23,361 nt of DNA, from positions 24,735 through 48,095 of the IMG/VR virus record IMGVR_UViG_3300029319_000094; one strand, written 5' to 3'. Below the pieces are notes generated by a model that had not been told where the DNA came from, searched no databases, and saw only the letters and a program-made list of their open reading frames with translations. Both the position numbers and the translations under genes were made by a program. Shown here piece by piece: positions 15,823-19,544 of this stretch. Each line of letters opens with the position of its first letter. Position 1 is the stretch's first letter. Source of the DNA: a virus.

Positions 15823-15837
15823 CTTTGTGTATTGGGT
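15823..15837 (+). promoter_or_regulatory. Promoter-like element, copy 1 (CTTTGTGTATTGGGT)
   Basis: First of four plus-strand copies of a conserved element ending in GGG. This copy is one T shorter than the others. It precedes the first plus-strand gene and is followed by TGGTT-AAC-AACCA (a small hairpin) and CCCAGCT-CA-AGCTGGG (15888-15903). A long reading frame opens at a TTG inside this element, which is why a later start is preferred for the gene. Confidence 0.55.
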
Positions 15838-15887
15838 CTGTGGTTAACAACCATCGCTACAGATTCCTATGCTCTAGATGGTTTTAT

Positions 15888-15903
15888 CCCAGCTCAAGCT
15901 GGG
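15888..15903 (+). promoter_or_regulatory. Stem-loop at the ribosome binding site of the first early gene
   Basis: CCCAGCT-CA-AGCTGGG is a perfect seven-base inverted repeat whose right arm runs into GGGGGAAAGG, the probable ribosome site of ATG 15913. Folding would partly hide that site, so it may limit translation. If translation starts further upstream, the repeat would be within coding sequence. Confidence 0.4.
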
Positions 15904-15912
15904 GGAAAGGAT

Positions 15913-16230
15913 ATGATTTCAATGGAAGATTATATCAAAGTATTTAAGAAACATTCTGACAAAGCTGGTTACTATTACACTAACATTGTCAGAACTAATG
16001 TAACTGTATTTGGGCAACCTGCTACTTACCAAGCTGGTAACAGCAATGGACAGAAAGTCCATTACTGGTTTGTCAATGCTGATGTGCCAAGTGCAAGCTT
16101 GCCTGATGTAGCTATGGCTCAAATTGATGGAGATGTAATCTCTGTAGAAGATTACAATCTACTAACAAGTGAGCAAGGTCTTGATGTTTCCTCTGATTCT
16201 ACTACAGAGCAACAGCCTGCTTCCTTCTAA
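15913..16230 (+). CDS. First early-arm protein, unknown function
   Basis: 105 residues from ATG 15913, with GGAAAGG about three bases upstream. The frame is open further 5' (to about 15793), but upstream starts are only TTG or GTG inside the promoter-like element, without ribosome sites. The protein begins MISMEDYIKVFKKHSDKAGY, has strands 'YYYTNIVRTNVTVFG' and 'QKVHYWFVNADVPSASLP', and ends in an acidic Ser/Thr/Gln tail. This suggests a small alpha/beta domain followed by a disordered tail. No family recognised. Codon use is a little less A+T-rich than its neighbours. Two hairpins follow it, so it may be transcribed alone. Confidence 0.6.
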   Translation: MISMEDYIKVFKKHSDKAGYYYTNIVRTNVTVFGQPATYQAGNSNGQKVHYWFVNADVPSASLPDVAMAQIDGDVISVEDYNLLTSEQGLDVSSDSTTEQQPASF

Positions 16231-16243
16231 CATCTTTCCTCTT

Positions 16244-16275
16244 TGCAGGGTAGTAACATCCAATGCTACCCTGCA
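16244..16275 (+). terminator. Strong hairpin after the first early gene; probable transcript end or processing site
   Basis: TGCAGGGTAG (16244-16253) and CTACCCTGCA (16266-16275) pair perfectly over ten bases with a 12-base loop, starting 13 bases after the stop codon. There is no following T run, so factor-independent termination is doubtful. A 3' end-stabilising hairpin is equally possible. Confidence 0.55.
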
Positions 16276-16450
16276 TCCTCAAAAGCTCGGTGTCAGCAAA
16301 GCTGACCAATACTGTAGTTGTCTTCATAGCTGTCATTTAACAACAAACAACCTAATAACAACTCTGTTATTGCCTGTGCTGGTATAAATTTGTTTAATAA
16401 ATGGCCAGTATAAATCAGTTTTGTTTGCAAGCCTGTAATAAATCTGTAAG

Positions 16451-16462: not shown

Positions 16463-16466
16463 AAGT

Positions 16467-17093: not shown

Positions 17094-17185
17094 TGCTTGA
17101 ATACATTATAATAATAGTAATATCATTATCAGTTGGAGGTGCTTTGTCAGTCTTGCCTTTAGATAAGAAGGTAGACAATGACTAA
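17093..17185 (+). CDS. 30-residue single-membrane-segment peptide
   Basis: ATG overlaps the preceding TAA by one base, with AGAGG upstream. Residues 4-22 (YIIIIVISLSVGGALSVLP) form one hydrophobic membrane helix, followed by a short charged tail. The next gene overlaps it by eight bases. Phage peptides of this kind can act on host membrane proteins or help lysis, but nothing here proves either. Confidence 0.5.
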   Translation: MLEYIIIIVISLSVGGALSVLPLDKKVDND

Positions 17186-17363
17186 GAAAGAAATGATAGA
17201 TAATATGCAGTATCTTGGAGACAGGGTACTGCATGGAGAGATACTTTTAATGAAATGGATGTCATTAATAGATGAACCATTGGAAGGTATGCCTACAGAT
17301 AAATTAAAACTAATGGAAGAAACACATCTTTTTATAACAAAACAAAGAGGTAATGATGATTAA
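17178..17363 (+). CDS. 61-residue helical protein, unknown function
   Basis: ATG with AGAAGG upstream. It is Met-rich (eight Met) and helical, beginning MTKKEMIDNMQYLGDRVLHG, then 'ILLMKWMSLIDEPLEGMP' and 'LMEETHLFI'. It overlaps both neighbours, consistent with coupled translation. The 'W.SLIDEPLEG.P.DKL' segment has no family that I recognise. Confidence 0.55.
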   Translation: MTKKEMIDNMQYLGDRVLHGEILLMKWMSLIDEPLEGMPTDKLKLMEETHLFITKQRGNDD

Positions 17364-18238: not shown

Positions 18239-18246
18239 ACTAATAA

Positions 18247-18262
18247 CTTTGTGTTTTTGGGT
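18247..18262 (+). promoter_or_regulatory. Promoter-like element, copy 3 (CTTTGTGTTTTTGGGT)
   Basis: Same 16-base element, here only 21 bases before the ATG at 18284, leaving room only for a ribosome site (GAAGGAG). If the transcript began far downstream there would be no leader, so transcription starting at the GGG is the simplest reading. Confidence 0.55.
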
Positions 18263-18283
18263 TTAAACAAAGAAGGAGATAAG

Positions 18284-18550
18284 ATGTCAAAGATATATGA
18301 ACATCATAAAGATAAAGAAGATATATTTGATGCAATGCCTACAATGAATGATGTAGAACAAGAGTTGTATCTAATAGAAACAGTAAGAGTAATGAAAGAA
18401 GCACAAGCCTTGCTTGGCATTAAAGCTAATCCAAAAGCTATACAGCAATGCTTAACAAAACTACAAGAACAAATCAATACAGCTGAAGAAACTATATTGC
18501 AGTTTGAAATAGACATGGAAGAAATGGCTAAGCATTATGGAAAGAGGTAG
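18284..18550 (+). CDS. 88-residue helical acidic protein, unknown function
   Basis: ATG at 18284 with GAAGGAG seven bases upstream. The frame continues 5' to a GTG, but that lies inside the promoter-like element, so ATG is the start. After MSKIYEHHKDKEDIFDAMPT the protein is helical ('ELYLIETVRVMKEAQALLGI', 'CLTKLQEQINTAEETIL') and acidic overall. It heads a group of four short genes. No family recognised. Confidence 0.6.
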   Translation: MSKIYEHHKDKEDIFDAMPTMNDVEQELYLIETVRVMKEAQALLGIKANPKAIQQCLTKLQEQINTAEETILQFEIDMEEMAKHYGKR

Positions 18551-18671
18551 CTGTGAAAGATGTGAAGAGCAAGATGCAGTGTTAAGAGACCCTCATGGAG
18601 ATGAGGTCTGTGTTACTTGCTATAACATAAGTGTAGGTGCAATAAAGAAAGAAGAGGAAGAATATGAGTAA
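18537..18671 (+). CDS. 44-residue zinc-ribbon-type microprotein
   Basis: ATG at 18537 overlaps the previous gene by 14 bases. Cys6-x2-Cys9 (SCERC) and Cys25-x2-Cys28 (VCVTC) form two knuckles as in a minimal zinc ribbon, with a short Asp/Gly turn between ('RDPHGDEV'), then a Glu-rich end. Such small ribbons bind nucleic acid or proteins such as RNA polymerase. The ribosome site is weak, so it may depend on coupling to the upstream gene. The four-Cys pattern within a short open frame is the main support. Confidence 0.55.
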   Translation: MERGSCERCEEQDAVLRDPHGDEVCVTCYNISVGAIKKEEEEYE

Positions 18672-18828
18672 AGAAAAAGAATCAATATTTTCAAAAATAA
18701 TCTGTGCATTTCTAACAAGCTGTAGTAAATTAGGCTTTATTACTAAAATAAAGACAACTAAATATCACACTACAGCATACATGCCTGGAGGTATTACTTT
18801 CAGGCAGTATCATCCTAGAGAGATCTGA
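18664..18828 (+). CDS. 54-residue protein, unknown function
   Basis: ATG overlaps the previous stop region by eight bases and has AGAGGAAG upstream. Contains 'IFSKIICAFLTSCSK', a short amphipathic stretch, then 'TAYMPGGITFRQYHPREI'. Its TGA overlaps the next ATG. No family known. Confidence 0.5.
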   Translation: MSKEKESIFSKIICAFLTSCSKLGFITKIKTTKYHTTAYMPGGITFRQYHPREI

Positions 18829-18968
18829 TGCAACAAAAAGAAAGAGATATATTAATAGAGTTTATAAAAGCTCATCTAGAACTATTTACACAAGATGAGC
18901 TTGACTACTTTGTAGACTATATTGTAACAAAAAATATAGACTTTAGAAAAAAGACTGAAATAAATTAA
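18828..18968 (+). CDS. 46-residue helical protein, unknown function
   Basis: ATG at 18828 overlaps the previous TGA by one base. The short product begins MQQKERDILIEFIKAHLELF and continues with 'TQDELDYFVDYIVTKNIDF', two helices. It is strongly A+T-rich, in contrast to the gene-free region that follows directly. Unknown function. Confidence 0.5.
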   Translation: MQQKERDILIEFIKAHLELFTQDELDYFVDYIVTKNIDFRKKTEIN

Positions 18969-19400
18969 ATAGCTAACATATGTGTGTGGAAGCTATTAGG
19001 GACATAGGTACCTCTCTTTCTACCTGTGTCCCTTTCATTAATTAGTAACCAACAGGCTGAGTGGGAAGGAGAGGTAGCTCCTCTTACATAGCATGCATGA
19101 ACATCCCAGCATGCCCAGCCTATAAAATTCCCTGTCATAGTAGATAGAATCACAATAGTTTTTTGGATAAACCTGTAAGTCCTGCATCACCCCTGTGCTC
19201 TGTAGGCAAAGGAAAAGGATTATTGTAGCTCTAGATATTATCTTTCTGACACAAAGACTATGGCAGGGATAAACTTGAGAGAGGATAACAATATATGTGT
19301 GAGATGAACAAGGTTTGCAGAAGAGAGTAATTTATCTAGACATCCTTGATTCCAGTCAATACCTCATGTGACACCTCTCTCAAAAACTTTAAGGAGATAA
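18969..19400 (+). ncRNA. Candidate structured noncoding RNA region
   Basis: 432 bases without a convincing gene on either strand. Several paired elements follow in order: AATAGCT/AGCTATT (18968-18974 with 18991-18997); a 13-base-pair hairpin at 18998-19010 with 19021-19033 containing one G-U pair; and an apparent three-way junction closed by AGGCTG/CAGCCT (19054-19059 with 19116-19121) enclosing AGAGG/CCTCT (19070-19074 with 19080-19084) and GCATGC/GCATGC (19091-19096 with 19109-19114). The part 18998-19121 is about 48% G+C by hand count, far above the flanking genes. T6 at 19159-19164 could end a transcript. No tRNA, tmRNA or group I intron signature holds up. Strand is assumed from neighbours. 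An origin or regulatory region is the alternative. Confidence 0.45.
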
Positions 19401-19544
19401 ATGGAAGAAGAGTTTGATAACTGGGAAGAAGTTCCTGATGAAGACTTGTTTCAAGATGGAGAACTAACCAATGAACAAGCAATGATAAAAGCTTGGGACA
19501 ATGTCTATTATGGAAAATATAAATTAATAAGAAGGAGAACATAA
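19401..19544 (+). CDS. 47-residue acidic protein, unknown function
   Basis: ATG with AAGGAGATAA directly upstream, a strong ribosome site. It begins MEEEFDNWEEVPDEDLFQDG and turns basic at the end (KYKLIRRRT). Its TAA overlaps the ATG of the next gene. The first half is strongly acidic. Not recognised. Confidence 0.6.
   Translation: MEEEFDNWEEVPDEDLFQDGELTNEQAMIKAWDNVYYGKYKLIRRRT

Follow-up and report, generated by a model that had tools for sequence, protein, structure and literature searches.

Positions 18969-19400 of the window, by which we mean the whole 23,361-nucleotide stretch of phage DNA that was analysed, are not one noncoding RNA but a mosaic of independent modules. Even where the flanking genes of two phages are more than 93% identical, the modules have been gained or lost, placed in another order or nested in one another. 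We read them as cis-acting elements between the cistrons of a polycistronic phage mRNA, with a benefit in mRNA stability or processing, and give this reading as a whole about an even chance. An earlier sequence-only reading had proposed a structured noncoding RNA. The structured RNA stood up (covariation, strand asymmetry, conservation) but the single noncoding RNA gene did not, the modules being rearranged independently. As the modules are independent and intercistronic and lie just 5′ of ribosome binding sites, cis-acting mRNA elements are at least as likely as a free noncoding RNA.

The window forms the right part of a virus record of 48,095 bases, which carries terminase, portal, head, Sak4-like and primase genes. 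Its terminase reaches at most 26% identity among the best hits to isolates and, to judge from the relatives, the source, an uncultured phage, is probably marine. The 432 bases of the region are free of sense-strand genes, as had been read from the letters: the upstream ORF ends at 18968 and the next one starts at 19401. Antisense ORFs that overlap the region are short (at most 68 aa) and broken by indels among the relatives. A small + strand ORF inside the region was rejected because a 2-base insertion in one relative (L018) shifts its frame. The core at 18998-19121, singled out beforehand for its high G+C content, has 48.4% G+C, compared with 24.1% in the preceding gene and 32.2% in the window, and none of 2324 stretches of 124 nt sampled from the window reached this value. 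The features are as follows, the ORFs and the Shine-Dalgarno motif being read directly from the sequence.

18245-18262, + strand: promoter-like direct repeat AACTTTGTGTTTTTGGGT, putative in function, with copies at 16465 and 20946
18828-18968, + strand: upstream 46-aa ORF, no Pfam match, family not known
18969-18996, + strand: predicted small hairpin ATAGCT..AGCTAT, present in the MFE and centroid folds, arms kept in L101
18998-19033, + strand: module A, a 13-bp hairpin with a 10-nt pyrimidine-rich loop, 8 loci including the window
19054-19121, + strand: module C, a pseudoknotted three-way junction with covariation, 12 loci
19054-19059/19116-19121, + strand: P1 of C
19062-19066/19104-19108, + strand: pseudoknot of C, its second arm being the P3 loop
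19070-19074/19080-19084, + strand: P2 of C, loop UAGCU
19091-19096/19109-19114, + strand: P3 of C
19130-19268, + strand: module D, a long three-way junction with covariation, 16 loci by the D model
19130-19140/19258-19268, + strand: P1 of D, 11 bp
19241-19245/19253-19257, + strand: P3 of D, 5 bp
19172-19212, + strand: cassette in the D loop, the inner half of motif M2, CCUGUAAGUCCU..AGGCAAAGG, from blastn, alignment and the M2 model
19275-19383, + strand: module F, a hairpin (UUGAGAGAGG..CCUCUCUCAA) that separates D from the ribosome binding site as an insertion, z -2.52
19391-19396, + strand: Shine-Dalgarno AAGGAG of the downstream ORF
19401-19544, + strand: downstream 47-aa ORF, no Pfam match

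On the + strand, the region folds better than its shuffles (z -3.65, with none of 100 shuffles as good), which agrees with what had been expected of it, compared with z -0.91 on the - strand. Folding beyond chance is thus confined to the + strand, and any structure must reside in RNA read from that strand. The structured part extends past the core to 19268, the end of D, and probably on to 19383, the end of F. Other structured sites occur in the window on the same strand. Strong structure (z -5.5) that includes a 12-bp hairpin, GCAGGGTAGTAAC..GCTACCCTGC, is found at 16226-16375, just 3′ of the gene at 15832-16230. Very strong folding at 17126-17350 (z -7.5 at 17201-17350) includes a 14-bp hairpin inside a putative ORF (17178-17363), and structure with z about -4 at 18701-18925 lies within small ORFs just 5′ of the region.

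The 13-bp hairpin that had been drawn on paper corresponds to module A, where z is -6.07 and none of 200 shuffles equals the fold. The three-way junction with AGGCTG/CAGCCT and GCATGC/GCATGC stems was likewise recovered as module C, together with a pseudoknot that had been overlooked. Relatives from IMG/VR prove the structure of C, pseudoknot included. In the six distinct homologs counted, which come from few lineages, P1, P2, P3 and the pseudoknot are paired in 98.5% of cells. Both partners have changed in nine pairs, of which P1 and P2 have three each, P3 two and the pseudoknot one, compared with 0-2 when partners are slid, and loop nucleotides are invariant. A covariance model of C finds its 12 loci and nothing else in 954 kb. 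Two candidate carriers, L113 and L114, were dropped; they were not recovered by a tighter pattern, and L113 reads as coding DNA devoid of the C structure.

Covarying pairs, sought in relatives as a check on the earlier proposal, are found in D as well, and support its structure with two pairs only. Among 14 distinct homologs, P1 and P3 are paired in 100% of cells, and two P1 pairs have changed on both sides (6 cells) compared with none when slid. Hardly any variation is seen in the loop bases GAAUCA and UAGAU or in the CUGAC loop of P3. In 12 of the 14 sequences P1 retains a U-G wobble, which would be an A-C mismatch on the opposite strand. The inner arm is variable: it is short in L107 and L096, and three different inserts occupy it elsewhere, the first in L098, the second in L099 and L101 and the third in L109. 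D serves as a scaffold and has an exchangeable cassette in its terminal loop. In the window this cassette is the inner half of M2 (83.7% identity over 43 nt to the M2 element of L083, blastn E 5e-6; model positions 23-64 at 19.2 bits, E 0.07), and this type is absent from D of L096, L107 and L106.

A Shine-Dalgarno sequence and start codon follow D after 18-26 nt in 11 of 15 loci and after 99-132 nt in the other four, three of which (the window, L106, L110) have an intervening module. The linker AAACTTTAAGGAG is kept 3′ of D in relatives. The genes 3′ of D differ in most phages, with different downstream starts, and the role of D is therefore generic rather than tied to one gene. On the - strand of L106, the gene after D and a hairpin module (M8) starts with MLIYKITNKINGKIY, which recalls GIY-YIG endonucleases, with no Pfam match. 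Module F has no relative in a gapped pattern search and is missing from all relatives seen, so that its structure rests on one sequence.

About 96 IMG/VR loci were gathered through neighbouring proteins, and the region itself was found in about a dozen contigs (blastn, nhmmer). The matches split into separate blocks, where A, C and D occur with or without others between them; D precedes C in L031, L032 and L043, with a small gene between the two. The closest relatives (L096, L001, L018, L107, L004) are 94-98% identical over 18250-18968, but almost all of them have different blocks in the A-C interval, within D and 3′ of D.

No match to the window was obtained from 4227 Rfam 15 families (tRNA, riboswitches, ribozymes, GOLLD, ROOL and others) at the curated cut-off, and nothing useful for the region at E up to 10. 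ARAGORN found no tRNA or tmRNA gene in the window, in line with what had been said of the region. Rfam returned only two tRNAs from 28 related loci, and weak hits only for canonical M2 at E up to 10. Searching the whole region and M2 against isolated phages (INPHARED, blastn) gave chance matches only. No second copy of the modules was found in the 48-kb record, so that there is one set per genome here.

M2 was searched with a 17-base pattern over IMG/VR. At least 120 stretches matched, from which 90 full elements were extracted; the distribution, being pattern-based and drawn from the matches listed, is a lower bound. The motif occurs in about 90 marine phage loci and in two bacterial genome contigs, one from a Flavobacteriales MAG and one of 46 kb from a Prochlorococcus single cell. 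Its core, CAAYAACUGGUCCURUAAGUCC .. GGCAAAGGAAUAUGUGA, is nearly invariant. The closing stem P1 is variable in sequence yet paired in 716 of 720 cells, compared with at most 593 in 500 shuffles. Across 50 aligned elements, 94 cells show double-sided changes, compared with 26 when shuffled and at most 33 when slid. In its architecture M2 looks like a conserved aptamer with covarying helices: the internal loops are invariant, the closing stem covaries and the peripheral hairpin varies. A Shine-Dalgarno sequence and start codon lie downstream of 66 of the 90 elements in sense orientation, compared with 5 of the 90 in antisense orientation. Like D, M2 is on the coding strand and the start codon usually follows some 20 nt further on. 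The distance to the upstream ORF was uninformative as a test of intercistronic position, the antisense control being nearly as high.

Some M2 sites have peculiarities of their own. In L026, L147, L153, L193, L197, L200 and L221 the element either immediately precedes a small CxxC (zinc-finger-like) gene or overlaps its first codons. At these sites the frame of an upstream ATG would run into the gene if M2 were removed, and intron-like or bypass behaviour is possible. In L063, L025, L048, L058, L047 and L081 a T-run stands directly after M2, where P1 could be an intrinsic terminator.

The P3 loop of M2 carries inserts of 4 to 134 bases and of many kinds. In L197 and L200 the flanks are 99% (upstream) and 96% (downstream) identical, but the cassettes are unrelated. 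Conversely, one and the same insert is found in M2 elements without any similarity across the 400 bases to each side, and P1 then often differs (L188/L197, L004/L172, L063/L176, L081/L221). From these two patterns it follows that inserts move independently of their flanks; recombination within the stems is our guess at how. Distinct M2 inserts are barely more folded than their shuffles (mean z -0.52). One cassette, GCCUC-hairpin-GGGCAAGUCCC.UGGACGAAC, recurs in L038 (1441-1600), L084, L141, L043 and L109; besides M2 and D, a third scaffold (GAGACTACC..GTAGTCTC) houses it.

A tentative and fairly improbable extension is that phages share a pool of structured RNA cassettes exchanged among conserved scaffolds (M2, D and others). 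This would be an RNA counterpart of a hypervariable locus, its turnover driven by diversifying selection, for instance to escape host defences or to exclude competing phages, while the flanks stay nearly identical. That such scaffolds display cassettes under diversifying selection as trans-acting or decoy RNAs, or as immunity determinants, we consider unlikely. The unrelated cassettes between the near-identical flanks of L197 and L200, the same cassettes within unrelated flanks and the similar variation of the D loop all fit this idea. However, complementarity of the cassettes to their own contig is not above that to other contigs, which also disposed of them as antisense guides, and an own promoter and freedom from tight spacing to start codons are both lacking.

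The promoter-like repeat AACYTTGTGTTTTTGGGT occurs at 18245 and 20946, with a weaker copy at 16465, and the 18245 element is kept at the matching place in L096, L001, L018 and L107. It lies about 700 nt upstream of the region. No phage-type promoter was found directly in front of the region, where the sequence-only reading had also seen no copy of the repeat, and no U-rich terminator 3′ of A, C, D or F. As no copy directly precedes it, the region is probably inside a transcript, co-transcribed with the surrounding genes; judged by its sequence, the 18245 element probably starts the operon that contains it. Repeats of the form AAC(T/C)TTGTGTTTTTGGGT (the one at 16465 being weaker) precede + strand gene groups, and relatives have matching copies.

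In the cis-acting reading, 18969-19400 would be an intercistronic stretch of a polycistronic phage mRNA with at least four separately folding modules (A, C, D and F). They would act in cis as stable folded blocks just 5′ of the ribosome footprint on the next gene. The blocks end just outside this footprint, and hence their probable task would be to define mRNA ends or shield them from RNases, and to leave the Shine-Dalgarno region unpaired. The place of an intercistronic processing or stability element, on the sense strand, between cistrons and near the next ribosome binding site, is occupied by 11 of 15 copies of D and 66 of 90 copies of M2. Further points in favour are the covariation in C, D and M2, the folding beyond chance on the + strand alone, the U-G wobble in D, the variety of genes 3′ of D, and the lack of a phage-type promoter directly in front and of U-rich terminators. 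What the sequences show is structure, strand, position, modularity and the exchange of cassettes; transcription, action in cis and the benefit are inferred. Three points argue against mere mRNA stabilisers. The invariant internal loops of M2 and the pseudoknot of C exceed the needs of a stabilising hairpin, a U-run stands right after P1 in 7 of 87 M2 elements, and cassette exchange brings no obvious benefit. The U-run suggests termination or attenuation in some M2 copies. The loops and the pseudoknot hint that a protein, a ligand or the RNAs themselves recognise these elements specifically, which is why sensor, ribozyme and trans-acting readings are kept in consideration.

Cis-regulatory sensors would switch the gene downstream, as riboswitch-like, attenuator-like or protein-binding leaders; they would account for the aptamer-like build of M2, the U-runs and the location just upstream of start codons. 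We nevertheless judge them improbable: the downstream genes vary widely instead of being functionally related, P1 does not sequester the Shine-Dalgarno sequence, the nesting of module in module is at odds with one sensor per gene, and no Rfam riboswitch matches.

Selfish mobile hairpins of a REPIN- or MITE-like kind, inserting into intergenic DNA and into the loops of earlier hairpins, would explain gain, loss and nesting between near-identical phages, and F is flanked by partial AAACTT repeats that resemble a target-site duplication. This is decidedly unlikely, as the closing stem of M2 covaries freely and keeps no terminal repeat, the sense-strand bias is strong, the 48-kb record holds one set instead of many copies, and the copy nested in the window is the inner half and not the whole element. 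Very doubtful are novel self-cleaving ribozymes, predicted to cut the polycistronic transcript 5′ of each ribosome binding site; compact size, the pseudoknot of C, the invariant loop nucleotides in M2, D and C and the intercistronic position speak for them, the lack of a match to any Rfam ribozyme family against them. Inverted repeats in a gene-free region might also point to a role of the DNA itself, for instance as a replication origin or packaging site; this is largely refuted by strand-specific folding, wobble pairs, the sense-strand bias and reuse before many different genes.

At least three structured RNA motifs (C, D and M2) thus have comparative support and are found in neither Rfam 15 nor the INPHARED isolates. 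They display RNA domain shuffling: a given cassette turns up in unrelated surroundings and in unrelated scaffolds, and near-identical phages carry different cassettes within one scaffold. If the cassettes are functional, their turnover marks a pressure on phage RNA, for which we found no earlier test; if they have no function, the scaffolds amount to natural frames for RNA display, tolerant of almost any insert.

Among known systems, the RNase III sites of T7 and the CUUCGG hairpins of T4 are intercistronic hairpins that process or stabilise phage mRNA. Like these, the modules lie on the sense strand between phage genes, near the next ribosome binding site; the T7 and T4 hairpins are simple, whereas the modules add pseudoknots, conserved internal loops, nesting and exchangeable cassettes, and their RNase role is putative. 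The C4 antisense RNA of P1 and P7 is likewise a structured RNA of a phage operon, with specificity in variable loops, but the cassettes described here have no complementarity to their own contig and no Rfam match. ROOL and GOLLD are large ornate RNAs of phages and prophages, their function not known (PMC12286853). They too are phage-encoded, multi-stemmed and without an assigned function, and ROOL is also pseudoknotted, but they are single large RNAs, often near tRNA genes, unlike short independent intercistronic modules that match no Rfam family (PMC12286853). Riboswitch-type leaders found by DIMPL follow the same logic of a G+C-rich gap in an A+T-rich genome and likewise have conserved loops and covarying stems upstream of genes; our modules differ in having no common downstream function or ligand and in loops that are replaced wholesale (PMC8723152). 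REPINs and other RAYT-mobilised hairpins are also palindromic intergenic units that vary in presence and absence, whereas the modules are unrepeated within the genome, strand-biased and closed by a stem that covaries (PMC3116915).
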